A DNA stretch of 64,000 nucleotides from positions 82,375 through 146,374 of the IMG/VR virus record IMGVR_UViG_3300036466_000332. One strand, 5' to 3'. Source of the DNA: a virus. The position numbers and the translations under genes were made by a program. Shown here one piece after another: positions 27,401 to 48,842 of this stretch; within the stretch, counting starts at the first letter, position 1, and every line of letters begins with the position of its first letter. The notes below the pieces were generated by a model. The model was given only the letters and a program-made list of their open reading frames with translations, was not told the DNA's origin and ran no database searches.

Positions 27401-27911
27401 CCCTTATTTTATTAGAAGGGTTCGTATATCAGGTACAGATCCTTTAGTAGATGTTTGCGATGAATTGGGTTACACGATTAAACCTGAAAATGGTCATGAT
27501 CCTGAAAATCCAGAAACAGTAGTATTGGAGTTTCCTGTTAAAGCACCTGATGGTATAACTAAAGCAGATGTCAGTGCTATAGAGCAATTAGAGATGTATA
27601 GAATGTTTATGAAAACATATGTTGACCATAATGCATCAATTACTGTCCATGTTCGAGACGATGAATGGGGTGATGTTGAAAAATGGTTATGGGATAATTG
27701 GGATGATGTTGTTGGTGTTTCATTTATTTCGTATAACGATAATTTCTATGATCTTATGCCGTATGAAGAAATTGATGAAGAAACTTATTTAGAAATGGAA
27801 GATAATATGAAACCCTTTAGAACTTCTCTAATAAGTAAATATGAAATAGAGCACAAAGAAAGACTGATCGATGATTCTTCATGTGAGTCAGGTGCTTGTC
27901 CAGTAAGATAA
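24480..27911 (+). CDS. nrdJ: Adenosylcobalamin-dependent (class II) ribonucleotide reductase with intein
   Basis: 1143 aa precursor, GGAGG then ATG. Residues 1-~92 form an ATP cone. The extein then follows the class II alpha chain: NFNC with the first redox Cys (C207), a GSGTGF loop, NVVSGGVRRSSQI, NP/C with the thiyl-radical Cys, CNLTTTNC with the second redox Cys, PEGTQSQMPTVSSG, and the C-terminal pair CESGAC. No beta subunit gene is present, as expected for a B12 enzyme. Removing the 324-aa intein leaves 819 aa, a usual size. The intein breaks the chain exactly before the catalytic Cys, so the enzyme is inactive until splicing. The oxygen-independent class suggests a host that can live without oxygen (inference). 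Confidence 0.88.
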   Translation: MKTVVKRDGKETEYKPEKIKNAVLKAATEVDAKDPETISVRMMKTVDNLLEKHYYKEDETPSVEEIQDLVEKGLVYDNNYEVSKAYILYREKQNERRKFKNKDNGLLPHDYLSDFKHIVNPFPTELGQFIYYRTYSRWLEKEERRENWWETVKRAVEYNTSLLPTSKKEMKKLYKNVFSFKNFLAGRTLWAGGGEVSKKYPMSNFNCSFTVLDSIESYGDIFYLLMLGSGTGFRVLPEDVDKLPKFRTDIKVINKSYEPRDKPYRNEHTELVFNKNIATIHVGDSKEGWVQSLLRYFDLLTNSIYRDIDTVVFEYDSVRPKGEKLETFGGTASGYESLERMFKKIDTILNGVKKEKLDGMNRYSLRPIDAMDFANVIAENVVSGGVRRSSQICLFSADDKEIIEAKSNLYKQVDGEWVLNEEISHRQMSNNTIYYEDKPSKEQLSWHVKQMRFSGEPGFLNVEEAKRRREDFNGVNPCFTGDMKLLTDDGYKTFEELNGKNVGVVNINGEVTNGKVWSNGVKDVIELKTSDGKGIRCTPDHIFMDSDGNEIEAKDMKHKRVMPAFYKNTKNNTLYSVLGFIQGDGSLTRLNSETHKGIEINLSKKDDDVLDLLEGGQKQARERVYYTGAYQDELIELKFSSERLPNRTLPETFDEWDIDKKKNFIKGLYSANGSVIGGEGRGRVTLKSTCKDLIKHVSEFLKSICIDNYITTNKAKENEFQNGSYEMKESYDLNIGKHSERLKFYREIGFIQEYKELKLKRYLKLNAPKVISINEIGEEEVYDFNEPETHWGVVEGCVVHNCAEILLDSKGVCNLTTTNCMMFVNDGELDREGILEAQRLAARAGYRMANVEFELNDWDRINERDRLIGVSITGWQDMVNALGWDDSFKEALNKKDELISSYLTGGKTGDGYLPSGILKQIKLLNDMKKAAIDGAESLAAEVGGIEPKLVTTVKPEGTQSQMPTVSSGLHYSHSPYFIRRVRISGTDPLVDVCDELGYTIKPENGHDPENPETVVLEFPVKAPDGITKADVSAIEQLEMYRMFMKTYVDHNASITVHVRDDEWGDVEKWLWDNWDDVVGVSFISYNDNFYDLMPYEEIDEETYLEMEDNMKPFRTSLISKYEIEHKERLIDDSSCESGACPVR
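25911..26882 (+). mobile_element. Intein with LAGLIDADG-type homing endonuclease in nrdJ
   Basis: 324 codons from Cys1 (CFTGDMKLLTDDG) to the terminal VVHN, followed by Cys+1 of the extein (CAEILL). Splicing block A is at the start, block B with TPDH (RCTPDHIFMD) near residue 65, dodecapeptide motifs LGFIQGDGSL and FIKGLYSANGSV in the middle, and blocks F/G at the end. All residues needed for splicing (Cys1, block-B TxxH, HN, Cys+1) are present. It interrupts the NPC active-site motif, a highly conserved insertion point that favours homing. Confidence 0.93.
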
Positions 27912-36285: not shown

Positions 36286-36299
36286 AACAATTTTAATAG
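36286..36299 (+). promoter_or_regulatory. Late-type promoter motif P-B, long operon 36345-48805
   Basis: AACAATTTTAATAG, 46 nt before the tail-fibre start. No terminator is seen until 48810, so this site probably drives all fifteen downstream genes. Confidence 0.55.
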
Positions 36300-36344
36300 T
36301 CGAATTAAATACATTAATATAATAAAAAGAGGTGAGTTTAGACT

Positions 36345-38000
36345 ATGGCTGGAAATAATAGACAAGTAGCAGTTATACCTATTAAATATAAAGATAGAGA
36401 GTTAGCATTACCAGGAGAAATTATCCTGGATAGTGATGGACGAATGTTTGCTAAATTAAATGATGGAACTGTCAAACCCATACGTGGCGAACAATTTAAT
36501 TTTATTCAAGATTTAATTAAACATAATTGGCATGTCGGTGACCAGGAATCTTTAGATTATGATATGGCAAGTTGGATTAAAACTGGAGACTATGACCCTT
36601 CTATTGATTATGAACGAGGGACAATATTAATTAAGGAATATTATTTAGAACCTGATGGTACTGAAAAGGAAAGATGGAGGGCTATAGCACCTATAACGGA
36701 GTTAAGTGGTGTAATAGTCAATGATAATACTGGGAAAACTTTAGAGGATATGATAAATGATGATCTATCTGATGGTTTTATATCTACAGATGATAAATTA
36801 GGAGATGGTGATTTACAATATGTTTCGGGGAATACATTCACTATCGTTGGTGATTGGTTAGATATATTCTTAGAAGATAGAAAACTTAAAATGCTATCAG
36901 ATGGTAATGAAGTTTTTTCTTTGATAGATCATGTGAATTATGATGGGACAGTTACGACTGTGACATTGGAGGATTCTGTTCTTGGGTCATCTATAGAGGA
37001 GGTTTTATATTCTATAATATCCCCTGGTGAAACTGGACCTATTTCGGATACCGATACATATTCTAAGATAGCTGAATATTTGGAAGCTGGAAATAATATA
37101 GATATTGATTTATCTAATGCTGATAAATTGAAAATAAGTTCTCCAACCGATACTGATGGCATAAAATCAGTTATAGGTGATTGGATTCAAGGTGGCGGTG
37201 CGACCACTGTATCCTATAATCCGACTGCCGGTACTCTTAAGATATCCAGTGTCAACACACAACGAAGTGATGGAGAAATAAATAGTTTGATAGAAAGCCA
37301 CATGAATGGACCTGTTGAGATCGGGGATAATTTAAAAGTCGGTGGCAATATAGATTTAACGGGATTTGATTTAGTTTGGGATGAACATACAGACGGTGCT
37401 AGAATCACATTCGTTAATCCGAGTGATGCAGATGAAACATATATGCTTTTTGAAACAAACGATAACAGTGATGAATATTTTAAATGGGGGCATAAAGATG
37501 TTTCTTTTGAGGAATGGATGCGTTTAGAACAAAGTGGTTTGACAGTTAATGGTGAGATTACAGGCACAAAAGTTTGGAATGCAGTGTATAATGGTGATGT
37601 CGCGGAACTTTTTGATTGTGTAGAGCATCAAGAATTTGAACCTGGTGATGTTTTGGTTTCGATGAAAGGTTTATGTTGTAAAACATCAGAGGAAAAACAC
37701 CGTGGTGTTGTGGGTGTTGTTTCAGATCCTGAATCATATGGGTATTTGCTTGGTGGTCCTGAAAGAGATTCCATTGATGACTATGGTGAAAACCAACAAC
37801 CTGTAGGGATAACAGGGCGTACTAAAGTAAAAGTTACAGGTGATATAAAAGAGCATGATCTTTTGGTCACATCTAAAAAATCTGGATACGCAACAAAGAT
37901 TAATAGTGATGAATATATGCCCGGAACTGTTTTTGCTAAAGCTTTAGAAGGTAACAATGGTGAAGACAAAAAAATTTGGGCTTTAATAATGAACGCATAA
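36345..38000 (+). CDS. Tail fibre protein with C-terminal chaperone/autoprotease-like domain
   Basis: 551 aa, AGAGGTG then ATG. The N-terminal ~120 residues begin IPIKYKDRELALPGEIILDSDG, a short virion-attachment style domain, followed by Asp/Gly/Ser-rich beta repeats (~130-330), an NGEITGTKVWNAVYNGDVAELFD junction and a C-terminal domain with EFEPGDVLVS, GVVGVVSDPES, PVGITGRTKVKVTG and PGTVFAKALE. That last block is typical of the intramolecular-chaperone/peptidase-G2-like ends of phage fibres and appendages. First gene of the long late operon that also carries the radical SAM and sugar genes; late-type motif AACAATTTTAATAG at 36286. Confidence 0.7.
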   Translation: MAGNNRQVAVIPIKYKDRELALPGEIILDSDGRMFAKLNDGTVKPIRGEQFNFIQDLIKHNWHVGDQESLDYDMASWIKTGDYDPSIDYERGTILIKEYYLEPDGTEKERWRAIAPITELSGVIVNDNTGKTLEDMINDDLSDGFISTDDKLGDGDLQYVSGNTFTIVGDWLDIFLEDRKLKMLSDGNEVFSLIDHVNYDGTVTTVTLEDSVLGSSIEEVLYSIISPGETGPISDTDTYSKIAEYLEAGNNIDIDLSNADKLKISSPTDTDGIKSVIGDWIQGGGATTVSYNPTAGTLKISSVNTQRSDGEINSLIESHMNGPVEIGDNLKVGGNIDLTGFDLVWDEHTDGARITFVNPSDADETYMLFETNDNSDEYFKWGHKDVSFEEWMRLEQSGLTVNGEITGTKVWNAVYNGDVAELFDCVEHQEFEPGDVLVSMKGLCCKTSEEKHRGVVGVVSDPESYGYLLGGPERDSIDDYGENQQPVGITGRTKVKVTGDIKEHDLLVTSKKSGYATKINSDEYMPGTVFAKALEGNNGEDKKIWALIMNA

Positions 38001-38021
38001 AATTGAAAGGGTGATGGTTTA

Positions 38022-38732
38022 ATGTTTGATCCACATTATATGCCTAGAGAAATAGTGGATAAAATGTACAATAAATATTTTATCCATAATTTCAAAATGA
38101 TGCTTAAATATGTAGATTATGATTGGGTTCATCCGATGGATGTAAAGACAAACGACCATATGGTTTCATGGGATAATGACCCGTATTTGGAAAAAACAAA
38201 AAATGAAAGAATAAAGTTAGGGTTGGATGTTTTGGAGAATGGGAACTATTGGCCATTCACAGGGGACTGGGGCATGAATGTTTCTGAAGGATGTCATAGG
38301 ATATGGTCTTTACAGGAGGTTTATAAAAACATCAAAAAATATGAAAAAAGATATTTGATGTTTAAGCATAGTTGGCAATTTTATTATGATTTTCGGAAAA
38401 TACAGCTCGACCATACAATTGAAGGTATCGATAATTTTGACGAATTATATAGCACATTCACAGAGTATGTGTATGTTCCTGATAAATGTATAGGTGAACC
38501 TTATTTAAAAAACACACTTGAAGACAAGACTGTAGATAAAATAGATTTTGGAGAATTTAACCTTTGTGTGATGGAATGTAAAAACATCTATGATATATTT
38601 TTGGCTTATATATCAATACCGGTTTTAATGAGGTATCCTTTAGCACACCAAGAGAAGATAGGTAAAAGAGTTCCTTCTTTACCACATATGAATGATGAGG
38701 GATTTTTTAGAGAATGGTACAGTAAAAGGTAG
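38022..38732 (+). CDS. ParB/sulfiredoxin-like domain protein 1
   Basis: 236 aa, AAGGGTGATGG then ATG, 22 nt after the fibre gene. ENGNYWPFTGDW...SEGCHRIWSLQEVY around residues 70-105 matches the ParB/Srx nucleotide-binding signature 'eNG...P..v...EG.HR..a'. N-terminal VDYDWVHPMDV aligns with the starts of the genes at 39845 and 40602, so the three are paralogues, with this one the most divergent (C-terminal half different). ParB/Srx folds bind and hydrolyse nucleotides or phosphorylate small substrates such as free serine. Alternation with radical SAM genes suggests one modification pathway. Confidence 0.55.
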   Translation: MFDPHYMPREIVDKMYNKYFIHNFKMMLKYVDYDWVHPMDVKTNDHMVSWDNDPYLEKTKNERIKLGLDVLENGNYWPFTGDWGMNVSEGCHRIWSLQEVYKNIKKYEKRYLMFKHSWQFYYDFRKIQLDHTIEGIDNFDELYSTFTEYVYVPDKCIGEPYLKNTLEDKTVDKIDFGEFNLCVMECKNIYDIFLAYISIPVLMRYPLAHQEKIGKRVPSLPHMNDEGFFREWYSKR

Positions 38733-38744
38733 GGGGTATATATA

Positions 38745-39848
38745 ATGGAAAAGGGAGATATTTTTTTTAATAGCTTAAATAGTGTGCAGTTGATATTGAA
38801 TAAGAAATGTAATTTTAATTGTAGCTATTGTTTTTCAGATAATGATGGTGAGGAAATGGATTCCGAATTACTGTTTTCTGATGTTTATAGATTTTTAAAA
38901 GAAAACTTATCGGATGATACAACTTTAAATTTTTTTGGTGGAGAACCAATGTTAGATTACCGAGAAAAGATAGACCCGTTAGTTTGTACTTTAAGGGATG
39001 ACGGGTTTGAAGGTGGTATAGGTATAGTTACAAATGGGAGTCTTTTCAACGAAAAAATAATGGATGAAATCATTGAGACAAATGTATCTGTTATGGTTAG
39101 TTTGGATGGTGATTATGAGACATTCTCTAAAAATAGAAATTCAGATCGTGAAGTTTTTGATGATATTATAAATAGTATAAAATATTTTGTTTCTAAAGAT
39201 TACCCGAATATCAGTGTTCGTTTAACATATGGCGAAGATGACATTGAGAATTTAACCAAAAATATTAAATTTATATATTCACTTGGGGTGGATGTGATTG
39301 AATTTTACCATGTTGATGAAATAAAACTCGATAAAAAATCAGCGGAAAAGTTAAAAGAAGAATTTGATAAATTGTTTTTCTTTTATGTGAAAAACGATGT
39401 TAAAATAAAATATATAGATGACTTGGTTCATTATTATTTAAATCCGGATGAGCATTCCAGAGGTAAATTACATCAGTGTGGATTGTTAAATAAAGATAAT
39501 TTTGATATGACAATCGATACTTCCGGTGATATTTTTACATGTCATCATTTTAATTCTGATGATAAAAAATATGATAGTTTTCATATCGGTAATATAAAGG
39601 AAACTTTCTATAAAGAAAAAATAAAGAATTTGAATTTGGGTCATTTAAAGAAAAAATATGTTTATGCACATAATGCAAGAGAAAATACCTGTTCAAAATG
39701 TAAATTGTATGATTTGTGTAATTCTATTTGTACTATGCAAAATATAAAGCAAAACAACAATATTTTTTTAAATTATAATGTCGATTGTTTTATAAAAAGG
39801 TCCTTCTATGATGTTATAGAATGGAGATTGAATGAGGTGAGACAATGA
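38745..39848 (+). CDS. Radical SAM enzyme with SPASM/twitch-type C-terminus (1)
   Basis: 367 aa, GGGGGT then ATG. The 4Fe-4S/SAM motif C22-N-F-N-C26-S-Y-C29 is followed by FFGGEPML (the GGE SAM contact), IVTNGSLF and VSLDGDYE, giving a standard SPASM-family barrel. The C-terminal part has extra Cys: HQCGLL, IFTCHHF, CSKCKLYDLCNSIC and a last CF, enough for one or two auxiliary clusters. Enzymes of this type modify peptides (RiPP maturases, sulfatase-maturases). It is flanked by ParB-like genes and lies in the same operon as the Trp-repeat protein. The family is certain; the substrate is unknown. Confidence 0.85.
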   Translation: MEKGDIFFNSLNSVQLILNKKCNFNCSYCFSDNDGEEMDSELLFSDVYRFLKENLSDDTTLNFFGGEPMLDYREKIDPLVCTLRDDGFEGGIGIVTNGSLFNEKIMDEIIETNVSVMVSLDGDYETFSKNRNSDREVFDDIINSIKYFVSKDYPNISVRLTYGEDDIENLTKNIKFIYSLGVDVIEFYHVDEIKLDKKSAEKLKEEFDKLFFFYVKNDVKIKYIDDLVHYYLNPDEHSRGKLHQCGLLNKDNFDMTIDTSGDIFTCHHFNSDDKKYDSFHIGNIKETFYKEKIKNLNLGHLKKKYVYAHNARENTCSKCKLYDLCNSICTMQNIKQNNNIFLNYNVDCFIKRSFYDVIEWRLNEVRQ

Positions 39849-40600
39849 CAGATAGGGATATTTTTGGTTGTTTGTATAAAGATTATATAGAAACCAATTT
39901 AAAAAATATTGTAAGTCACAGTTTATTCGATATAGAATTTGTGACTCCAGAAAAACTGGCATGTATGGTTGATCTACCAAATAAACCATATTTTTTTGAC
40001 GAGAATGGAAAGATAAAAAATGAGAATATTAATTTAGAGGGTATTGAGGGGTTAAATAAATCTAGAGATTTAGCTTTGGATATTCTAGAAAATGGTTTTT
40101 ATTATCCCTTGATTGTGCAAAAGGATGAGTTAGGGTATATTGGTGCTGAAGGGAGACACCGTTCCTTGGGTATTTTATCTTTATATAATAAGGGTGTTTG
40201 GCCCAGAGATAAAAGAATACCTGTTATAGTGTGTTATTTTGATTATCAGTCCCTCGTTAAGGGTGTAAAAGATGTTAGAAGTGGAAAAAAGGATTGTATA
40301 ATAGGGGAATACCCAATGAATGAAAGTCTTTTTTTGAATGCATCCACATTAGCAGATTTATTTTCAAAGAAAAATTATTTAATCAATTACGATAAAAAGA
40401 AACTTATTGATGATGAGTTAGGGATATTTCAATGCGAGATAAATGATCTCTATAGTTTTTTCATATTAAATGGTATTTATTATGGTGGTATAAGTAGAGA
40501 TATTTTGAAATATAAAAAAAGAGATAATCCTATTGAACCATCTCGTGTTATAAACAATATCCGTGATTTTTATTTATTTTTCAAAAATGGGAGTGGATGA
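39845..40600 (+). CDS. ParB/sulfiredoxin-like domain protein 2
   Basis: 251 aa, start overlaps the radical SAM stop by 4 nt. LALDILENGFYYPLIVQ...GAEGRHRSLGIL at ~75-110 is the ParB/Srx signature with the EGxHR nucleotide motif. The C-terminal domain ends FILNGIYYGGISRDILKY, nearly identical to FFINGIYYGGISNDLFLY in the next gene. FVTPEKLACMV near the N-terminus matches WMTPEEIINKL there. These are recent duplicates. A nucleotide-dependent kinase or ATPase role is inferred from the fold; DNA partition is unlikely because no HTH is present. Confidence 0.6.
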   Translation: MTDRDIFGCLYKDYIETNLKNIVSHSLFDIEFVTPEKLACMVDLPNKPYFFDENGKIKNENINLEGIEGLNKSRDLALDILENGFYYPLIVQKDELGYIGAEGRHRSLGILSLYNKGVWPRDKRIPVIVCYFDYQSLVKGVKDVRSGKKDCIIGEYPMNESLFLNASTLADLFSKKNYLINYDKKKLIDDELGIFQCEINDLYSFFILNGIYYGGISRDILKYKKRDNPIEPSRVINNIRDFYLFFKNGSG

Positions 40601-40601
40601 A

Positions 40602-41369
40602 ATGAAACATAGGGAAATAACCGAATACTTTTATAATGATTTTATTGATACAAATTTACGCAATTTAAACAACCACCCACAATTCAATATCGAATGGATG
40701 ACACCAGAAGAAATTATAAACAAACTGAATATACAGGGTGAAGAACATCATATGTTCGATGGTGATATGGATTATACTGATATACCTGGGGATCTTTTTC
40801 TCTATAACTCCTTTAATGATGCGAAAAAGTTGGGTTTGGATGTTCATAAAAATGGAATGTACAATCCCATTTTATTACAGAAGGTAGATGGTGTATATTC
40901 TAGATCCGAAGGAAGTCATCGTTTAAGAGGGATACTTCATCTTTATAAATCTGGTGTTTGGGATAAAAATAAGAAAATATGTTTTTTGGTGTGTGAATTT
41001 GGATACGAAAAAATGAGATTGGAAATTGTTGATATAAGAAAAAATATCAAAAAAACTTTAGATGATCCTGATATGTATAAGATGGACGATGTTTTAACTC
41101 TTAATGCACCTTTATATCATGGATGGGATAGTAGAACTAAACTCCTAGTCAAGTATGAAAGAAAAAAATTAACAAACGAAGAGCTTCAAATATACAGTTT
41201 TGATATAGAGAATTTTTATGACTTTTTTTTTATTAATGGTATTTATTATGGTGGTATAAGTAACGATTTATTTTTATACCATAATACAGATGAAATGATT
41301 CATCCTAGTCCAGTAGTTAATGATGAAAAATTTTTTAAAAAATATATGGGGGATGTTAAAGATGAGTAA
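40602..41369 (+). CDS. ParB/sulfiredoxin-like domain protein 3
   Basis: 255 aa; ATG 40602 follows GGGAGTGGATG, one base after the previous stop. Same architecture as its neighbour: N-terminal WMTPEEI, DVHKNGMYNPILLQ...SEGSHRLRGILHLY signature, and a C-terminal NGIYYGGIS block. It overlaps the next radical SAM gene by 8 nt. The conserved C-terminal domain outside the ParB fold probably binds the shared partner or substrate. Confidence 0.6.
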   Translation: MKHREITEYFYNDFIDTNLRNLNNHPQFNIEWMTPEEIINKLNIQGEEHHMFDGDMDYTDIPGDLFLYNSFNDAKKLGLDVHKNGMYNPILLQKVDGVYSRSEGSHRLRGILHLYKSGVWDKNKKICFLVCEFGYEKMRLEIVDIRKNIKKTLDDPDMYKMDDVLTLNAPLYHGWDSRTKLLVKYERKKLTNEELQIYSFDIENFYDFFFINGIYYGGISNDLFLYHNTDEMIHPSPVVNDEKFFKKYMGDVKDE

Positions 41370-42510
41370 CATAAAGAGAGGTTTCACTTTTGATGAATAT
41401 GAAAAAAGTATTAAAAATAGATATAATGCTTCTTTAATATTTAAGATAACTAATTATTGTCCACACAATTGTAGTTATTGTTATCATAAATATAAAAATG
41501 AAGAAGATCTTGATAAAGAAATGTCTTTGGATGTTTTTAAAGAAGCACTTTATAAACTAGGGGATAGTTTCGAAGTTATAAAATTACACTTACATGGTGG
41601 TGAGCCACTTACTGTACCATATGAAAAGTTAAAGTCTATGTTGGAGATAATAGAAGAATATAGACAAAAAAGAAATAGGGGTAAATTTATAATCACTATG
41701 GCCACTAATTTATTGCTTCTTGATGAGGAAAAATTGGAAATTCTTGAAGAACACGATGTTAAGATTTCTACCAGTTATGATGGGAAATACCATAATGAAA
41801 AAAGAGCGGTTAATCTTGAGAGAGTGAAAGAAAAAATTGATATGACCCAAGGTGTTGGGATGATAGGTGTTATGACAAAAGATTGGGTTGAGGATTTGGA
41901 TGAATCAATAGATTATGTTGAAAATAGCAAAAAAGGGAAACCCTTGGTTAATCCAGTTATGGCTTTTCCTGCAGATGATGAAGATGTTCTCGATCCAGGT
42001 GATTATTCAGATTTTGTCATTCGACGTTTTGAAAAACAAATGGAGACTGGATTGTTTAGTTGGGGGACATTAAGATATCTACAAGCGGTTCTGGGTCATT
42101 CTGGCGACTGTTTTGTTTCGGGTTGTCTTAACTCAATATTTACAGTAACACCATCAGGAAATATAAAGGGTTGTGATTCCCGTAATGAAGATTATTGGTA
42201 TTATTGTAATATATCTGATATAGAATGTGTTGAAGATATTTATGAGACTGAAAAGTATAAGAATATGCAGAGGATGTATTACAATAGATTAAAAAAATGT
42301 GAAAAAGAATGTGATGTTTTTGAGTATTGTGTTGGTGGCTGTCCTAATAATTATAGGCTTAGACCGGATGGTGAATTCAGCAAAGATTACATGTGTTATG
42401 ATTATAAACAGATGATATACTATTTTCGGGATTTTTATGAAAGCTTTGGTAGTAAAGAAGAGAATCTACCCGAAAGAATTAAGGATGTTTTGATGTTAAA
42501 AAATGATTGA
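41362..42510 (+). CDS. Radical SAM/SPASM enzyme (2)
   Basis: 382 aa; ATG 41362 has GGGGGATG upstream and lies inside the end of the previous gene. C33-x3-C37-x2-C40 in NYCPHNCSYCYH, HGGEPL for the SAM contact, MATNLLLL and STSYDGKY strands. The SPASM part is Cys-rich: CFVSGCLNSIF, IKGCDSRNE, KKCEKECDVFEYCVGGC and a final CYDYKQ, close to the canonical seven-Cys SPASM pattern with two auxiliary 4Fe-4S clusters. Such enzymes form C-C, C-O or thioether cross-links in peptides, Trp/Tyr/Asn/Arg side chains among them. This is the strongest peptide-maturase candidate of the operon. Confidence 0.87.
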   Translation: MSNIKRGFTFDEYEKSIKNRYNASLIFKITNYCPHNCSYCYHKYKNEEDLDKEMSLDVFKEALYKLGDSFEVIKLHLHGGEPLTVPYEKLKSMLEIIEEYRQKRNRGKFIITMATNLLLLDEEKLEILEEHDVKISTSYDGKYHNEKRAVNLERVKEKIDMTQGVGMIGVMTKDWVEDLDESIDYVENSKKGKPLVNPVMAFPADDEDVLDPGDYSDFVIRRFEKQMETGLFSWGTLRYLQAVLGHSGDCFVSGCLNSIFTVTPSGNIKGCDSRNEDYWYYCNISDIECVEDIYETEKYKNMQRMYYNRLKKCEKECDVFEYCVGGCPNNYRLRPDGEFSKDYMCYDYKQMIYYFRDFYESFGSKEENLPERIKDVLMLKND

Positions 42511-42530
42511 TAAAAAGGAGATGGTGGGAA

Positions 42531-43517
42531 ATGTTTAGTGTACCGTTTAATCAAACCGAGGAGGAAATAGAATTATATAGGGATAATGAAGATATTATAA
42601 AAGAAATTTATGCACCTATATCACCCAATTTTTTACACACTGCCCGACATATTGGGTGGTCAGAAAAAAATGATTATTTACTAGAGGAGCTTTTAAAAAC
42701 TAGTTCTGAAACATCCATAGGATTGAATCTCTTGATGAATTCTATAAATGACGATAAAATATTTATGATGAATGATTTAAAAGATATGTTAAACCAAGTG
42801 TATGAATATCAAAAACTTGGTTTAAAAAAAGTTACAGTTGCAAACCCTATTCTGTATCGGGCTATAGTGGAGAATTTACCCGGTATCGATATCGGTTTAT
42901 CTGTTATTGCTAATGCTGACACCATAGAAAAAATAAAGCAATTTTATGATTTTGGTAATCTAGTAGAATATTGTGTTCCACCAAAATTAACAAGAAACAG
43001 GGATTTTATAGAAAAGATAAAATCACTATTTGATGGTGTTAAAATTAAAATGATGGTTAATTGTTTTTGTAATCCAAACTGTGTTGGTTTTATACACCAT
43101 CACATTGAGGCTTCTAGTGGAAAAAAAGAAAAGGATACAGGGTATTTTAATTATGTTTGTAGCCAACATACAATAAACCCTCTTAAAAAGAATATAATTT
43201 TCCCCAATGAAATAGAGCATTATTCAGAGTATGTGGATGTTTTCAAAATATCAGGAAGAGAGACACATACCGAAACTATGTCGGAAATTTTGGATCTATA
43301 TAGAAATCCTAAAAAATTAAAGGAATATAATTTTCTTAAAGTTTTAGATGGATATAAAGCAAAGGGTGCTTACCTTTATGACATAAGTCCAAAGAATGGT
43401 CCAAGCAGAAACTTAGATTTAATAGAAAACTGTGACTATATGTGTATAGAAAATAAATGTGACCATTGTGGGGAAATGTTAGCTAAAAATTTTGAATTTA
43501 TGGAGGGTGAATTATAA
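42531..43517 (+). CDS. U32-peptidase-like Cys-rich protein
   Basis: 328 aa; ATG 42531 follows AAGGAGATGG. TIM-barrel-like: LGLKKVTVANPIL, DIGLSVIANADT and FKISGRE strands, with MVNCFCNPNCVGFIHHH matching the conserved 'N..C.p.CP.R..H' region of U32/UbiU proteins, YVCSQH, and a C-terminal CIENKCDHCGEM cluster. Related in layout to the gene at 23497. UbiU/V-type relatives hold 4Fe-4S clusters and take part in oxygen-independent hydroxylation, while others are peptidases; either chemistry could assist the radical SAM enzymes on both sides. Stop and next start share one base (TAATG). Confidence 0.6.
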   Translation: MFSVPFNQTEEEIELYRDNEDIIKEIYAPISPNFLHTARHIGWSEKNDYLLEELLKTSSETSIGLNLLMNSINDDKIFMMNDLKDMLNQVYEYQKLGLKKVTVANPILYRAIVENLPGIDIGLSVIANADTIEKIKQFYDFGNLVEYCVPPKLTRNRDFIEKIKSLFDGVKIKMMVNCFCNPNCVGFIHHHIEASSGKKEKDTGYFNYVCSQHTINPLKKNIIFPNEIEHYSEYVDVFKISGRETHTETMSEILDLYRNPKKLKEYNFLKVLDGYKAKGAYLYDISPKNGPSRNLDLIENCDYMCIENKCDHCGEMLAKNFEFMEGEL

Positions 43518-44488
43518 TGAATATTATGTTAAATAATTATTGCAATTTAAATTGTGAATATTGTTTTGTAGAGAAACAATCAGGTCCCAATGCCAGAAAT
43601 ATAACTATGGAGAATTTTGCAAAATATATCAAATTCTTAAAAAACAATGGTATTAGAGAGGCTAAGTTGTTAGGAGGTGAACCAACACTTCATCCAAAAT
43701 TTAAAGCTATAGTTAAATATTTAAATAGTGATGATTTTTTTGAGAAAATATTGATATTTACTAATGCTCTATCTCTCAATGAAGAAATGGTTGATGAAAT
43801 AATTTCACCTAAAGTTAGTTTTTTAGTGAACTATAATAAAGAGGAAGATATAGGGAAAGAAAATTTTAAAAAAACATCTGATAATATCGATTATTTGGTT
43901 GGTGAATATAATAAACACAATAGTGGACATAGAGTCACTCTCGGTATAAACATATCTGAACCTGATTTTGATTATAAATATATAGTGGATAAGAGTCAGG
44001 AGTTGGGGTTAGATAATATAAGGTATAGTTTAACTGTGCCAACTAAAATAAATGAGGATTATGTGTCAATAAAAGAATATGAGAAATTTATACCTGGTAT
44101 CTTAGAATTTTTTAAATATGCTAATAGAAGGAATATTAGATTGAGTATCGACTGCAACAATATTCCAAAGTGTTTATTTGAAAAAGAAGAATTGTTGGAA
44201 GTGATTTTGGGTAATAACGATATGTGTGAAAGAAAATATTGCACAATGCCTCTTGATATAGATATGGATCTAAATGTCACTAGATGTTTTCCTTTTAAAA
44301 ACAGATTTGAAGTGAATTTAGAGGATTTTAATGATATGGGTGAGTTAGTAGATTATTTTGGGTCTAGAATAGACAAGTATAGGTTCAATGAACCCACATT
44401 TAAAGAATGTGTTGATTGTGAACTTTTTAAAGAAAGACTATGTCAAGGTGGATGTTTGATTTATAAATTTGGTAACAACAAACTCTAA
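43517..44488 (+). CDS. Radical SAM enzyme (3)
   Basis: 323 aa, coupled to the previous gene. C9-x3-C13-x2-C16 right at the N-terminus (NNYCNLNCEYCF), LLGGEPTLHP for the SAM site, IFTNALSLNEE strand. The C-terminal part has CERKYCTMPLDID, VTRCFPF and CVDCELFKERLCQGGC, so an auxiliary-cluster domain of SPASM/twitch type. The start directly at the cluster motif, without an N-terminal peptide-recognition domain, contrasts with the other two. 12 nt before the 44501 gene. Confidence 0.85.
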   Translation: MNIMLNNYCNLNCEYCFVEKQSGPNARNITMENFAKYIKFLKNNGIREAKLLGGEPTLHPKFKAIVKYLNSDDFFEKILIFTNALSLNEEMVDEIISPKVSFLVNYNKEEDIGKENFKKTSDNIDYLVGEYNKHNSGHRVTLGINISEPDFDYKYIVDKSQELGLDNIRYSLTVPTKINEDYVSIKEYEKFIPGILEFFKYANRRNIRLSIDCNNIPKCLFEKEELLEVILGNNDMCERKYCTMPLDIDMDLNVTRCFPFKNRFEVNLEDFNDMGELVDYFGSRIDKYRFNEPTFKECVDCELFKERLCQGGCLIYKFGNNKL

Positions 44489-44500
44489 GGGGGTTTCAAA

Positions 44501-44785
44501 ATGGAAATTAAAATTAATGGAACAGATGTAGTTAGTGATATTGAATATTGGGAAATAAGTAAAGCTAGTGAGGGAAATTTATCTACAATGATTTTGAAGG
44601 CTGAATTTTCTTCTAATTTGTTTGATTTGGTGGATACAGATACAACAGAGAATATTCTTTTTGTAGAGGATGATGAAAATAAATCGGTTAAGTTTGATAT
44701 TGACAATATTAAATTTATCGGACTAAAATCTAAAGAAGGTTCAATGCAGCAACAATTTGTAGCACATGGTGTTTTAGAGAAATAA
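44501..44785 (+). CDS. Small beta-rich unknown protein
   Basis: 94 aa, AAGGGGG then ATG, between the third radical SAM gene and the Trp-repeat gene. Short hydrophobic strands alternate with acidic loops (MEIKINGTDVVSDIEYWEIS...ILFVEDDENKS), suggesting a compact beta-sandwich of the kind found in phage fibre or baseplate adaptors. No Cys and no leader-like feature. It may be a structural partner of the Trp-repeat protein, or a recognition domain for it. Confidence 0.5.
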   Translation: MEIKINGTDVVSDIEYWEISKASEGNLSTMILKAEFSSNLFDLVDTDTTENILFVEDDENKSVKFDIDNIKFIGLKSKEGSMQQQFVAHGVLEK

Positions 44786-44803
44786 TTATTGGAGGTGGGT
44801 CTT

Positions 44804-45490
44804 GTGCCGTATAAAACTTGGTCTAACAGAACCATTTGGGGTAGATCTAATTTGGTTGGATTGATAGTTAAAAAAGATGACTTACAGGAAATAGAAGACG
44901 CGATAAAAAACCATAGAGATTTTTTAGATAACTACCCTCACAATTTCAATCAACCTAATACAAATTACCCAGTTACAAAAGAAGGTAAAATTGTATACGA
45001 TACTATAGATGACATAAAAGCCGGTATAAACTCCTTCTATTACGGAAATAACCCAAACAGTGGACTCGTTTCTGATGATAAAACAGGGGACCACATCACA
45101 GCTGAAGATATATCCTCTTTAAGGGATAGAGTCAACCATATAGAGACTAACTGTGTTGCGTGTGATACCTGTCAATTTTCTACTTGGACAGCCCGATGGT
45201 CAACTCGATGGACAACCCGATGGGACAATAATTGGGGTGCTAGTTGGACAACTAAATGGACAACCCGATGGGACAATAATTGGGGTGCTAACTGGACAAC
45301 CCGATGGGATAATAATTGGACCAATAGTTGGGGTAACAGTTGGGGTGGCAGTTGGGGTTCTAGTTGGAATAACAACTGGGGTGCCAATTGGGGTACACAC
45401 TGGAATAGTCGTTGGGGTTCTAGTTGGGGTGGAAGATGGGGTAGCCGATGGGGTAGTAGTTGGTCTAGTAAATCCTCTTACTTCTCTTAA
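44804..45490 (+). CDS. Trp-repeat protein: 24 Trp at exact four-residue spacing (rSAM substrate or fibre candidate)
   Basis: 228 aa; GTG 44804 is 8 nt after GGAGGTG. Residues 1-~120 look like a virion-attachment domain (YKTWSNRTIWGRSNL...ITAEDISSLRDRVNHIE), then CVACDTC, then 24 tetrads xxxW from residue 128 to 220, with TTRW, DNNW, GANW, GSSW and GSRW as common forms, and a short SSKSSYFS end. No Trp is out of register. The N-terminal part argues for a structural phage protein. The repeat, rich in Trp with Arg/Asn/Ser/Lys neighbours and lying in an operon with three radical SAM enzymes, is what a multi-site maturase substrate would look like. No known repeat family comes to mind. Confidence 0.75.
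   Translation: MPYKTWSNRTIWGRSNLVGLIVKKDDLQEIEDAIKNHRDFLDNYPHNFNQPNTNYPVTKEGKIVYDTIDDIKAGINSFYYGNNPNSGLVSDDKTGDHITAEDISSLRDRVNHIETNCVACDTCQFSTWTARWSTRWTTRWDNNWGASWTTKWTTRWDNNWGANWTTRWDNNWTNSWGNSWGGSWGSSWNNNWGANWGTHWNSRWGSSWGGRWGSRWGSSWSSKSSYFS
45182..45463 (+). repeat. 12-bp periodic coding repeat (xxxW tetrads)
   Basis: TGG recurs every 12 nt from 45185 to 45461 without exception (24 copies). The first half contains longer near-identical blocks (ACAACCCGATGGGACAATAA repeats three times), showing recent internal duplication, while the second half is diversified. Confidence 0.95.
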
Positions 45491-45523
45491 TACCCAAAAA
45501 CAAATAATGGGGGTCGAAAATAC

Positions 45524-45883
45524 ATGAATAAGAACGATACAATATATGGATTCAAAAGACCCCCCATTTTAATAGATGGGGTGTCTATTTCTGATTATTC
45601 GAAAACCAAATATGATATTTTAAATGAAGAATTTCATATTTTTTTTTATGGACTTGACGGTACCAGTAGATTGAAAGTTTTAGAGAGGATAAATTTTTTT
45701 AATGGTATCATGGATAAAGATAATGTTGGTTTCTGTTTTAAAAATAGTGATGGGGAATCAATTGGGTATTTAAAAAACCCTAAATTACTAAGATACGGTA
45801 TATCTGGTGAGACAGTGGATAGACAAAAATTGGAAGTTGTTTTTGGTGGTAAATTAATTTACAAACTTGGGGGTGACATTTAA
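45524..45883 (+). CDS. Small unknown protein downstream of Trp-repeat gene
   Basis: 119 aa, GGGGGTC then ATG. Beta-strand pattern with RPPILIDGVSISDY, FHIFFYGLDGTSRLKVLER and a final GGKLIYKLGGDI. It may be a tail or fibre adaptor; the fold is not recognised. Stop and next start overlap by one base (TAATG), coupling it to the glycosyltransferase. Confidence 0.5.
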   Translation: MNKNDTIYGFKRPPILIDGVSISDYSKTKYDILNEEFHIFFYGLDGTSRLKVLERINFFNGIMDKDNVGFCFKNSDGESIGYLKNPKLLRYGISGETVDRQKLEVVFGGKLIYKLGGDI

Positions 45884-47022
45884 TGAAAATATGTATGATA
45901 AGTGATCCCATGGCTTCTTACCCGGAAAAGTCATACCATAGTAGTTCTATTCAATTAAACCATATGGTTGATGGTCTTTTGGAATTGGGACACGATATAG
46001 ATCTGGTTATTGGGTCTGGTGAGAATATTGATAATATAGAGGGTTTAAAGATATTTGATTATCCTAACAGATATGTCGATTTAGGGGATAAGTTAAATGA
46101 TCATAGACACCAGGCAACTAACGACTTCTTTCACAATAGGGTTATTGGTGTTCTAAGGGATAATATGGGAGAGTACGATATTATACATGTACATGATACC
46201 AATTTGTTTAATAAACTGAAATTGATTGATGATTTGAATACACCTATATTGTACACTCTACATGTTAGTATTGATTACGATGATTCTAATGAAACATATA
46301 TGTCTGCACCTTATTTGCAAGATACTGTAGACAAAACAGAAGGCAATTATTTTACTGCAATGAGTAATTTCGTTAAAGATAACTCAGTTAAGAATGCCGA
46401 TAAAATATATGTTGTTTATAATGGTATAGATTTAGATATGTTCAGTTTTGAAGAAAACAAAGAGGATTTTTTTATATTTGTGGGAAGGGTATCCGATAAG
46501 AAAGGTTTTTCCTATATATTGGATGCGTTGGATCATTATGATTTCAATATTAAGATTGCTGGACCTTTAATGTATAATAATGATAGTGACAATGATACAC
46601 TTAATGTTGATGGTAGATTGAGAAATTACAATATAGAGGAGTATTTTAACAGAAGTAATGTTGAATACCTCGGTATATTAGACCACGATCGGGTTTCAGA
46701 ATATTTGTCTAAGGCTAAAGGTTTGATTCATCTTCATGAGTGGGGTGAAGGTTTTTCTATGGCTATAGCTGAATCTTTATCGTGTGGTACACCGGTTTTA
46801 TCTACTGATCGTGGTGGACCTGGTCACTATCTTTTAGATGGATATGATTCCATAGTTTTAGAGGGTGAGACATTCAAAGACCCTATAAAGGTGGTTTCTT
46901 CTCTTAAAGATTTGGAAAATATAAAACCAGAAAATTGTAGGATTTCAGCAGAAAGATTTGATAAAAATAAATTGGGAAATCAATATGAGGAAGTTTATCG
47001 AGATATTCTAGAAAATATGTAA
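45883..47022 (+). CDS. GT4-family glycosyltransferase (GT-B fold)
   Basis: 379 aa. The N-terminal Rossmann half begins MKICMISDPMASYPEKSYHSSS and contains YDIIHVHDTNLFN. The C-terminal half has FVGRVSDKKGFSYILDAL, IKIAGPL, and HLHEWGEGFSMAIAESLSCGTPVLSTDRGG, the E(x7)E donor-binding motif of retaining GT4 enzymes. It would move a sugar from a nucleotide donor to a protein or glycan acceptor. The donor may be made by the three genes that follow. The acceptor is unknown; co-expression with a tail fibre makes a virion protein likely. Confidence 0.85.
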   Translation: MKICMISDPMASYPEKSYHSSSIQLNHMVDGLLELGHDIDLVIGSGENIDNIEGLKIFDYPNRYVDLGDKLNDHRHQATNDFFHNRVIGVLRDNMGEYDIIHVHDTNLFNKLKLIDDLNTPILYTLHVSIDYDDSNETYMSAPYLQDTVDKTEGNYFTAMSNFVKDNSVKNADKIYVVYNGIDLDMFSFEENKEDFFIFVGRVSDKKGFSYILDALDHYDFNIKIAGPLMYNNDSDNDTLNVDGRLRNYNIEEYFNRSNVEYLGILDHDRVSEYLSKAKGLIHLHEWGEGFSMAIAESLSCGTPVLSTDRGGPGHYLLDGYDSIVLEGETFKDPIKVVSSLKDLENIKPENCRISAERFDKNKLGNQYEEVYRDILENM

Positions 47023-47035
47023 GGGGATGGATAAT

Positions 47036-47686
47036 ATGGAAAAAGATATTGGTATTTTTATGCCTGGTAGACTGAAAAGTGAAAGGTTACCTAATAAACT
47101 ATTATTGGATATCGATGGTACCAATTTATGGGAGATAGCATGTAAAAAATTATCCAAATTACCAGATAAATATGGTAAATATGTTTTAGTTTATGACGAC
47201 AAATTAATCGATATTGCAAATGAATATGGGTTGAATGTTATAAAAAGAGATATTGGTACTACTGAGGCTGATGGTCCATTGACATATATTTATGGTGGGG
47301 TTTCAGAGATAGATAAAACCCATATTATGTTTCTTAACCCCTGTCTTTTATTTTTGACAGTCGAAACTATTGAAAATTCTATTGAGGAATTTTTAAATTC
47401 TGATGCAGACTATGCAACAAGTGTCAAAAAATTGGAGAATTGGATTTTTGATTCTGAGGGTGATAATTTAAATAAAATCAAATATAAATTTTTATCAACT
47501 AAAGATATCGACCCCCTTTATCAAGCCGCACATGCTTTCCATATTTTTAATAAAGAAAATTTTTTTAAAGATGGTTATATGTTAAAAAAGGGACATCAAT
47601 TGATTGAGATACCTGAAGATGAAACTATTGATGTTGATACAAGGGATGATTTTTTATATGCTAAATGGAGGTGGAGTCTTACTTGA
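47036..47686 (+). CDS. CMP-sugar synthetase-like nucleotidyltransferase (NeuA/SpsF type)
   Basis: 216 aa; ATG 47036 follows AAGGGGATGG. IGIFMPGRLKSERLPNKLLLDIDG is the CTP-binding start of the CMP-KDO/CMP-NeuAc synthetase group ('iipaR.gS.RLPgK.l..i.G'), with the usual first Arg kept. Later FLNPCLLF replaces the common 'qptsPl', and VDTRDDFLYAKW near the end matches 'vdt.eDl..a'. It probably activates the nonulosonic-type acid made by the NeuB-like gene with CTP. SpsF of spore-coat polysaccharide synthesis has the same look. Confidence 0.7.
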   Translation: MEKDIGIFMPGRLKSERLPNKLLLDIDGTNLWEIACKKLSKLPDKYGKYVLVYDDKLIDIANEYGLNVIKRDIGTTEADGPLTYIYGGVSEIDKTHIMFLNPCLLFLTVETIENSIEEFLNSDADYATSVKKLENWIFDSEGDNLNKIKYKFLSTKDIDPLYQAAHAFHIFNKENFFKDGYMLKKGHQLIEIPEDETIDVDTRDDFLYAKWRWSLT

Positions 47687-47964
47687 AATATGTTATAGAT
47701 ATTGATGGTACTATATGTACACAAGAGGATGACTATGAAGATGCCAAACCTTTAAAAGAAAATATAGAACGATTTAATAAATTGTACGACGAAGGTCATA
47801 CAGTCTGGTATTTTACAGCTAGAGGTACAGAAACTGGTATAGATTGGACCGAAACCACTAAAACACAATTTGAAAAATGGGGTGTTAAATACCATGAACT
47901 TCTATTTGGTAAACCCAGTGCTGATGTATATATAGATGATAGGTGTGAGAATATAAATAAATAA
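47683..47964 (+). CDS. Small HAD phosphatase (capsule/sugar type)
   Basis: 93 aa; TTG 47683 is 10 nt after GGAGGTG and overlaps the previous gene by 4 nt. DIDGT is the catalytic D-x-D motif, TARG motif II, KPSADVYIDDR motifs III/IV. A capless minimal HAD phosphatase of the kind found in capsule loci. Placed between the NeuA-like and NeuB-like genes, it would remove the phosphate from a sugar-acid phosphate, as NeuB-phosphate pathways require. Confidence 0.8.
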   Translation: MKYVIDIDGTICTQEDDYEDAKPLKENIERFNKLYDEGHTVWYFTARGTETGIDWTETTKTQFEKWGVKYHELLFGKPSADVYIDDRCENINK

Positions 47965-47989
47965 ATGGATGGGATGGGTGGTTATTGTG

Positions 47990-48805
47990 ATGTTTATTGG
48001 GGAGATTGGAATAAACCATAACGGTGATCTTAGAGGTTGTAAGAGACTAATAGCATCCTGTAAGGCTTCTGGTGTGGATATTGTTAAGTTTCAGAAAAGA
48101 AATCCTGATGTATGTGTCCCAGATAATAAGAAAGATATATTAAGAGAAACCCCTTGGGGGACTATGAGATATATTGATTATAAGAAAAAGATTGAATTCG
48201 GTAAGGAAGAGTTTGACGAGATAGATAAATTTTGTAACCAAATAGGAATTGAGTGGACTTCGAGTGTCTGGGATATAGATAGTTTAGAATTCATTTTAAA
48301 TTATGATGTTCCGTTTATCAAAATACCAAGTGCTATGGTCACAAATAAAAAACTATTGAGAAAGATTAAATCTTCAGATATTCCAGTTATTATGTCAACA
48401 GGAATGAGCACAAAAAAAGAAATAAAAGATGCAGTTGATATACTGTCTGGTTGTGATTTATCAATTCTACATTGTAATAGTAGTTACCCATGTGCTGATG
48501 AGGAAATAAATTTAAAAACAATACAGACACTTAAAAAGGAATTTCCAAATCATACTATTGGTTACTCTGGACACGAGAGTGGTATATTACCCAGTGTTTA
48601 TGCTAGAGCAGCTGGTGCTGATATAATAGAAAGACATGTTACTTTGGATAGAAATATGTGGGGAACAGATCAATCCTCTAGTCTTGAACCTATTCAACTA
48701 AAAAAATTGATTAATAGGTTATGGGAGCTTGATAGGATAATGGGTGACGGTAAGATTAAAGTCTATGATTCTGAAAAAGAGATTAAAGCTAAACTTAGAA
48801 AATAA
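47990..48805 (+). CDS. neuB: Sialic-acid synthase family protein (NeuB/SpsE type), no SAF domain
   Basis: 271 aa; ATG 47990 (GTG 47987 also possible). TIM barrel with EIGINHNGDL, DIVKFQKR, WDIDSLEFI, VPFIKIPSAM, VIMSTGMST, LHCNSSYPC, TIGYSGHESG, ERHVTLDR and GTDQSSSLEP, all core NeuB motifs for joining phosphoenolpyruvate to an N-acetyl-hexosamine. The C-terminal antifreeze-like (SAF) domain of ordinary NeuB (~350 aa) is missing, so substrate closure must differ or come from another protein. Last gene of the late operon, followed by a strong terminator. The product could be a nonulosonic acid on the virion or host surface. Confidence 0.85.
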   Translation: MFIGEIGINHNGDLRGCKRLIASCKASGVDIVKFQKRNPDVCVPDNKKDILRETPWGTMRYIDYKKKIEFGKEEFDEIDKFCNQIGIEWTSSVWDIDSLEFILNYDVPFIKIPSAMVTNKKLLRKIKSSDIPVIMSTGMSTKKEIKDAVDILSGCDLSILHCNSSYPCADEEINLKTIQTLKKEFPNHTIGYSGHESGILPSVYARAAGADIIERHVTLDRNMWGTDQSSSLEPIQLKKLINRLWELDRIMGDGKIKVYDSEKEIKAKLRK

Positions 48806-48809
48806 TTGT

Positions 48810-48842
48810 ATACCAGGGTTTATTCCCTGGTATTTTTTTTAT
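48810..48842 (+). terminator. Terminator of the 36345-48805 operon
   Basis: Stem ATACCAGGG/CCCTGGTAT with loop TTTATT and eight T; the first terminator after the tail-fibre promoter. Confidence 0.9.

Follow-up and report, generated by a model that had tools for sequence, protein, structure and literature searches.

Radical S-adenosylmethionine (SAM) enzymes that mature proteins with tandem CXXX repeats are known in bacteria, where they are curated in NCBIfam as TIGR04115, and modules of several radical SAM genes are known in phages. A paper of 2010 describes 11 and 12 radical SAM proteins and clusters of five radical SAM genes in the Campylobacter phages CP220 and CPt10, and terms the presence of so many such genes in phages highly unusual (PMC2853527); a multi-radical SAM module is also mentioned for phage IBB_35 (PMC3322345). 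The cluster described here lies in a stretch of 64,000 nucleotides (nt) of the 146-kb IMG/VR virus record IMGVR_UViG_3300036466_000332 (positions 82,375 to 146,374), hereafter the window, and joins a tail fibre, three radical SAM enzymes (rSAM1 to rSAM3), a protein ending in tryptophan tetrads and a set of sialic-type sugar genes (Table 1). Set beside the known systems, it is a tryptophan version. With slightly better than even confidence, we read it as a phage tail-protein maturation module, in which relatives of the bacterial CXXX-repeat maturases form a phage branch that acts on tail proteins and here works on tryptophan.

The likeness to TIGR04115 systems lies in a radical SAM enzyme adjoining a protein of tandem four-residue repeats; the window differs in carrying a Trp instead of a Cys repeat, in its low scores and in its position beside a phage tail fibre. 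The tandem CXXX target that goes with TIGR04115 is present in two of the phage loci compared (L201 and L224), whereas the window has WXXX. Against this model, rSAM1 reaches 56.5 bits and rSAM2 about 19 bits, both under the cut-off of 350. PapB-family ranthipeptide maturases (NF047865) are the top match of rSAM1, at 134.5 bits and well below the cut-off of 340, and again the Trp repeat as target sets the window apart. PapB also ranked first or second for all ten enzymes that we chose for comparison (nine whose genes adjoin Cys-repeat ORFs of phages, the tenth taken from a gut record), and all ten scored best for either TIGR04115 or PapB. Among them, the L224 enzyme passes TIGR04115 with 386.3 bits, the L201 enzyme reaches 340, and the gut enzyme, which accompanies a CXXX-repeat protein and is named a peptide maturase, scores 630.6. 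Because the curated name of TIGR04115 is that of a maturase for CXXX-repeat targets, the repeat protein is the likely substrate. For rSAM2, the models scoring below TIGR04083 include DynA (74.3 bits), AmcB (73.6), YhhB (69.9), PapB (65.1) and GrrM (62.8); the cyclophane-forming SPASM enzymes among these (DynA, AmcB, YhhB and GrrM) give a slight hint of an aromatic target, at scores far below their cut-offs of 310-450. In a PDB sequence search, rSAM2 came nearest to an anaerobic sulfatase-maturating enzyme (E 1e-12) and rSAM1 to radical SAM protein 8vpo (E 8.6e-7), matches that leave the substrate of both undecided.

CP220 and CPt10 resemble the window in that several radical SAM genes are clustered in a large myovirus; they differ in their glycine amidinotransferase partner, and the parts of PMC2853527 that bear on these modules mention neither a repeat-tail protein nor a sugar set. 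The statement of the first-pass annotation that no such phage system had been described is thus to be narrowed: multi-radical SAM clusters had been published, but with other partners. CPt10 does carry a small Cys-rich open reading frame (ORF) about 6.7 kb from a radical SAM ORF (L204:17808-18044). Among the papers listed in searches of the open-access literature, none describes, by title or abstract, radical SAM enzymes tied to phage tail repeats.

In the proposed substrate, whose Trp repeat had been noticed at first pass, tryptophan recurs at each fourth position between residues 133 and 225, giving 24 successive tetrads. A pattern of seven such tryptophans matches this repeat 18 times with overlap and matched none of 100 shuffles. 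The Trp of each tetrad is followed at position 2 by G, T, D, S or N, at position 3 by T, N, S, A or G, and at position 4 by R, S, N, K or H; positions 2-4 thus draw on nine residues in all (A, D, G, H, K, N, R, S and T). Near-identical copies of the cluster occur in two further viral contigs (194.6 and 70.4 kb), the first without any base difference over the fifteen genes and the second with 46, of which the fibre holds 37 and each of the remaining 14 genes 0-2. This concentration suggests recombination or selection at the fibre. The strain differences in the Trp protein, D146V and T178S, both fall inside the repeat and affect no tryptophan.

Ahead of the repeat stands a body of about 130 residues, for which AlphaFold2 (mean predicted local distance difference test score, pLDDT, 44.0 for the whole protein) places helices, at low confidence, at 29-48, 64-82 and 105-123; further helices within the repeat are of very low confidence. 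This body is related to that of phage Cys-repeat proteins. A profile of eight Cys-repeat bodies, chosen by us by eye for their three-helix build, aligned in hhalign with residues 1-131 of the Trp protein at a pairwise E of 1.7e-5 and a probability of 78.7 over 106 columns, covering residues 14-124 and stopping at the cysteines just before the repeat; against the other 14 proteins of the operon, the same profile gave probabilities of at most 0.4. With a profile of the single helical module, none of 1000 shuffles of the Trp body reached the score of the body itself, although a different ORF of the window scored slightly higher (see below). The gut phage Phass-1 offers a protein of like build with a Cys-rich end, located after two radical SAM genes, whose direct pairwise match to the Trp protein is weak (E 0.038). 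With its related body, its adjoining repeat and its radical SAM genes on the same strand, the Trp protein is assigned by sequence to the phage repeat-tail protein group defined here.

The association of related enzymes with such repeats was followed in two scans of viral contigs. The profile of the first was led by rSAM1 and also held the Phass-1, rSAM2 and CP220 enzymes, and the best 80 of 105 loci were considered; that of the second was led by rSAM2 with the enzymes of L234 and L210 and gave 63 loci, leaving out L493 and L494 (the copies of the window itself), L180 and L190. Cys-repeat ORFs, taken among the longest non-overlapping ORFs, were defined by a Cys followed by at least seven more, each after 1-4 other residues, a rule fixed after five of the 80 loci had been viewed. 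Such an ORF occurs in 32 of the 80 loci (27/75 when the five are removed) and in 31 of the 63. The two counts are not independent, because the second scan has DNA in common with the first at 24 of its 63 loci; among the 39 others, 15 have a Cys-repeat ORF, and the 63 loci with tails from both scans fall into 41 groups at 80% identity. None was found by the same rule in 34 loci holding relatives of the window's NeuB (0.61 Mb) or in 234 TGG-pattern loci (2.0 Mb), which are shorter on average. Fisher tests against the NeuB loci gave p values of 1.6e-6 and 4.6e-8, nominal figures that take the loci as independent. Every Cys-repeat ORF lies on the strand of the radical SAM gene (37/37 and 35/35), as compared with a background of 77% (1340/1746) and 80% (968/1209) of ORFs. 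Distances are short: of the 37 in the first set, 26 are at most 2 kb and 32 at most 5 kb away from a radical SAM ORF, and three have none that is recognised by the window's enzymes. All six first-scan loci with a homologue of the window's fibre also have a Cys-repeat ORF.

The repeat motifs themselves vary widely (e.g., CxxxC, CNCNY and CTCDCNY at L195:8999-9547, L188:13433-14539 and L199:8763-9914, the last in several separate blocks). Among 33 repeat proteins scanned, that of the window included, two carry a Peptidase_S74 chaperone domain, which by eye sits after the repeat, and one each a Phage_T7_tail, a collagen and a Phage tail repeat domain; several PHROG tail-fiber families were matched as well. 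One scanned repeat protein matched Hint models, and L180:4402-5517 reads by eye as a Cys repeat followed by a Hint (intein-like) domain. Some candidates were dropped: L169 and L170 (MT836984, MT836452) are labelled as phages and look like bacterial loci of the SCIFF peptide family, L172, with two radical SAM genes, looks bacterial by eye, and the repeats of L241 are of another low-complexity type. L168 has a radical SAM match.

Two described phages show the arrangement in its cysteine form. The jumbo phages SPN3US of Salmonella and phiEaH2 of Erwinia each have two Cys-tetrad ORFs after a virion structural gene, followed by a hypothetical gene and two radical SAM genes; they resemble the window in placing radical SAM genes and tetrad-repeat ORFs near a virion structural gene and differ from it in using Cys, not Trp. 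In SPN3US, the two ORFs lie at 143416-144229 (complement) of NC_027402 (L486:5088-5901), one at 143831-144229 and one at 143416-143817, and neither is annotated in frame, the first having no annotated gene and the second being overlaid by RefSeq gp100 in another frame; in phiEaH2 (L487), short genes in other frames overlie both. Baseplate or tail-fibre candidates detected in SPN3US virions, which have been analysed by mass spectrometry with 86 virion proteins reported, include gp170, gp169 and gp168, of 135.4, 149 and 188.1 kDa, with gp168 encoded by 5.2 kb (PMC5694885). Matched by length, RefSeq gp096-gp098 (3714, 4131 and 5184 nt) probably correspond to these three. The passages of PMC5105663 considered add nothing on the SPN3US genes discussed here.

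The gene combination singled out at first pass recurs in looser form in L495 and L497, two large phages of the same sample, where a fibre gene, rSAM1, rSAM2 and rSAM3 follow each other in the same order as in the window. All six best matches between radical SAM enzymes are reciprocal among the ORFs compared, at 41-64 bits, and both phages carry further radical SAM genes. Near these genes, both phages encode an aminotransferase; L495 has in addition a DAHP-synthase-family enzyme (KdsA-like by eye, or of the aromatic pathway) and two carbamoyltransferase parts, and L497 a cytidylyltransferase. The NeuB of the window found no match in the two records, in a search run without a positive control.

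Several observations weigh against a maturation module. No modification has been observed. Each window enzyme falls far short of the curated cut-offs set for the models named here, the lean of rSAM2 to the cyclophane models (63-74 bits) is slight because PapB gives 65, and the best model of rSAM3 is MoaA, no peptide maturase. Pfam SPASM did not match any of the three at E<=1. By the Cys-repeat rule, 48 of the 80 and 32 of the 63 radical SAM loci have no such ORF, only 4 of the 7 second-scan loci with a fibre homologue have one, and the scan profiles themselves held enzymes with Cys-rich neighbours (Phass-1 in the first, L210 in the second). The single-module profile matched another ORF of the window slightly better than the Trp protein (E 0.061 and 0.093). 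In L495 and L497, the repeat proteins are of other types, with an 11-residue repeat and a Tyr-rich sequence, respectively, and match the body profile weakly or not at all (probability 10.1 and 0.4); ParB-like or U32 relatives are absent from the stretches fetched from these phages. Trp-tetrad proteins are likewise absent from the 143 radical SAM loci of both scans. DNA-pattern scans of viral and genome contigs for Trp tetrads gave none that was real by eye beyond the window's own copies among the matches listed (at least 120 per scan for viral contigs and at least 116 stretches for genome contigs, some of them listed only where an ORF of at least 90 amino acids had an M ahead of the repeat), which does not establish absence; as candidate homologues, nearly all these matches proved after translation to be low-complexity reading-frame artefacts.

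The maturation reading can be put as follows. The W-x-x-x repeat would be the substrate of the three radical SAM enzymes, which in successive steps would join tryptophans to residues close by through carbon cross-links. The flexible tail would thereby stiffen into a protease-resistant rod or an adhesive tip on the fibre or baseplate; in the cysteine versions, the product would be thioethers. As a separate module, NeuB, HAD, NeuA and GT4 may make a nonulosonic-type sugar activated with cytidine monophosphate and attach it either to this appendage or to the surface of the host, and the U32 and ParB-like proteins may be accessories. The proposal of the first-pass annotation that the phage matures a protein such as the Trp protein gains comparative support from the same-strand Cys-repeat association, the related body and the gene order in two phages; glycosylation of the phage's own fibre, also proposed there, is a possibility.

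That the radical SAM, U32 and ParB-like proteins belong instead to the sugar pathway, making or modifying an unusual nucleotide sugar for transfer by GT4 to the fibre or the host surface, next to a Trp protein that stays unmodified, we hold to be unlikely, although NeuB, HAD, NeuA and GT4 come directly next in the same gene run, sugar-type genes stand near the radical SAM genes of L495 and L497, and the MoaA match of rSAM3 would suit it. At L131:1144-1980, moreover, a different SPASM radical SAM gene, confirmed by Pfam, lies just upstream of NeuA-NeuB and may contribute radical chemistry to the synthesis of a phage sugar. Set against this are the 34 other NeuB loci (32 viral contigs and 2 phage records, leaving out the window's own copies L128 and L129), with NeuB identities of 44-56% in 33 and 25% in one. 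The small HAD relative is present in 23 of them and a NeuA relative in 8, and in none was a window-type radical SAM, ParB-like, U32 or Trp relative found (phmmer, E<=1e-3); a motif scan for radical SAM ORFs in these loci also gave none, yet it missed the Pfam-confirmed gene of L131. As a route to the whole cluster, NeuB relatives returned the sugar module alone, and the NeuB/NeuA/HAD/GT4 module is, to judge from these gene contents, separable from the radical SAM part. Furthermore, the recurring partners of related enzymes are Cys-repeat proteins, and the top curated models for rSAM1 and rSAM2 are peptide-modifying enzymes.

The remaining alternatives leave the enzymes other roles or the product another fate. 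Tryptophan stacks on sugars, and the Trp tail could be an unmodified adhesin or carbohydrate-binding tip whose W-rich repeats stack on host glycans, the radical SAM genes serving other substrates; the base differences crowded into the neighbouring fibre are as expected near a host-recognition site, but Cys, which replaces Trp in the related proteins, is ill-suited to glycan stacking, and Cys repeats do accompany radical SAM genes, so that we find this account improbable. A radical SAM/SPASM enzyme beside a repeat precursor is a hallmark of ribosomally synthesized and post-translationally modified peptides (RiPPs), and the gut record with its high-scoring TIGR04115 enzyme and CXXX-repeat protein fits a free RiPP, in which the Trp repeat would be cut from its protein and set free as an antimicrobial or signalling peptide that targets the infected host's competitors. 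This is more doubtful still: the family scans recognised neither a transporter nor, besides the U32 match, a protease among the cluster proteins, U32 proteins are often not proteases, and the relatives include tail fibres, among them the two with a Peptidase_S74 domain. Least probable to us is a chance gathering of auxiliary metabolic genes, as suggested for the five-gene radical SAM modules of Campylobacter phages, which are described as interchangeable and likely non-essential (PMC2853527); the conserved order with reciprocal best matches in three lineages and the same-strand association with repeat proteins speak against it. The tail-protein maturation module is the reading that we retain.

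Table 1. Genes and other features of the cluster, in window coordinates, with the family evidence for each (aa, amino acids).
Feature	Position	Strand	Evidence or remark
Tail-fibre protein, 551 aa	36345..38000	+	PHROG tail fiber E 2.7e-9
ParB/sulfiredoxin-like protein 1 (EGCHR motif)	38022..38732	+	No family match; 30% identity to other two over 114 aa
Radical SAM enzyme 1 (PapB-like; SPASM-like cysteines)	38745..39848	+	Pfam Radical_SAM 55.9 bits; PapB 134.5; TIGR04115 56.5
ParB/sulfiredoxin-like protein 2 (EGRHR motif)	39845..40600	+	36% identity to protein 3
ParB/sulfiredoxin-like protein 3 (EGSHR motif)	40602..41369	+	Low-confidence AlphaFold2 model, Foldseek
Radical SAM enzyme 2 (SPASM-like cysteines)	41362..42510	+	Pfam 56.3 bits; best NCBIfam TIGR04083 83.9
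U32-family protein	42507..43517	+	Pfam Peptidase_U32 (PF01136) 29.8 bits, cut-off 22.4
Radical SAM enzyme 3	43517..44488	+	Pfam 61.5 bits; best NCBIfam MoaA 56.7 bits
Small protein, 94 aa	44501..44785	+	No Pfam family
Trp-tetrad protein, proposed substrate	44789..45490	+	W-x-x-x repeated 24 times after three helical modules; TTG start chosen by program
Small protein, 119 aa	45524..45883	+	No Pfam family
GT4 glycosyltransferase	45883..47022	+	Pfam Glycos_transf_1 72.2 bits
NeuA/PseF-like cytidylyltransferase	47027..47686	+	Pfam CTP_transf_3 26.2 bits, cut-off 22.6; close homologues adjoin NeuB in L130, L131
Small HAD-like phosphatase, 99 aa	47665..47964	+	PHROG 1238 E 4.2e-31; homologue in 23/34 NeuB loci
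Short NeuB-type sialic/nonulosonic acid synthase, 278 aa	47969..48805	+	Pfam NeuB (PF03102) 242.4 bits
Intrinsic terminator	48810-48833	+	9-bp stem then T's
Fibre homologues in radical SAM loci			First scan L183, L201, L206, L210, L224, L255; second scan L495, L497, L506, L516, L528, L529, L550

The fifteen same-strand genes up to the first terminator, as initially proposed, were recovered, running end to end from 36345 to 48805 with the stem and T's directly after. Between successive genes, gaps (+) and overlaps (-) measure +21, +12, -4, +1, -14, -4, -1, +12, +3, +33, -1, +4, -22 and +4 nt, so that overlaps range from 1 to 22 nt and not from 1 to 11 as claimed; the value of -14 depends on a start at 41356, which is no start codon, and the ATG at 41362 gives -8. 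The late-type promoter motif placed at 36286 is absent there. The sequence TATAAATA occurs 18 times across the window as compared with 18.7 expected, i.e., at chance level, with no copy between 34943 and 39167, and expression late in infection has no promoter support.

Family assignments made at first pass held for the tail fibre through PHROG, for the U32-like, GT4, NeuA- and NeuB-like proteins through Pfam, and for the HAD-like protein through PHROG 1238. The two small proteins, called beta proteins at first pass, have no Pfam family. Judged by the CxxxCxxC cluster motif and by PF04055, whose cut-off of 29.5 bits all three radical SAM ORFs exceed, these enzymes belong to the superfamily. Their description as SPASM enzymes is weak: SPASM-like cysteines are invariant in an alignment of five proteins, evidence from alignment only, whereas the Pfam model itself gave the null result reported above. 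The U32 protein has its best match, 27% identity over 59% of the query, in the U32 protein of T4-like phages. NeuB scores 234.9 bits against TIGR03569, below the equivalog cut-off of 399.65, and covers model positions 2-277; because the match stops at position 277 of 329, a C-terminal part, the SAF domain, is missing.

The three ParB-like proteins are paralogues (30-36% identity) that share an EGxHR motif. No model of Pfam (E<=1), PHROG or NCBIfam (E<=0.1) matches them. An AlphaFold2 model of protein 3 (mean pLDDT 49.7, with higher values around residues 31-40 and 71-130) has Noc, ParB and sulfiredoxin as its best Foldseek matches, the best E of this low-confidence model being only 0.035; the likeness claimed at first pass is weak. 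Viral scans with a single protein and with a three-protein profile returned just near-identical copies, no relative was found in 12 other viral records, and none in 199 genomes, a zero that is uninformative by itself. As a neighbourhood marker, for which the EGxHR proteins had been put forward, they did not recur beyond these copies.

Elsewhere in the window, the terminase has its nearest relatives in Fusobacterium phages JD-Fnp (38-40% identity), and no match to rSAM2, to one ParB-like protein or to the window's first 25 kb was found in a phage collection. A ribonucleotide reductase-like ORF of 1143 aa (24480-27911) looks interrupted by an intein, as judged by eye from its translation.

A wider proposal, which we advance as a tentative possibility and consider rather doubtful, is that many tailed phages, SPN3US included, form covalent staples within the tandem repeats that end their fibres or tips, using radical SAM enzymes of their own, and have diversified the residue concerned (Cys, Trp and perhaps Tyr); the cross-linked rods would then be a protein material of a new class and a new form of tail maturation, and the window its first Trp case, with 24 tetrads, three enzymes and then a sialic-type sugar. 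A direct test is open in SPN3US: mass-spectrometry data exist for its virions (PMC5694885), but its Cys-repeat ORFs are unannotated in frame in RefSeq. If true, radical SAM peptide maturases, known for small bacterial peptides, would also build phage tails, which would help to explain the many radical SAM genes of some phages, and the cross-linking of Trp repeats would be a new target for chemistry and a possible source of stable protein fibres.

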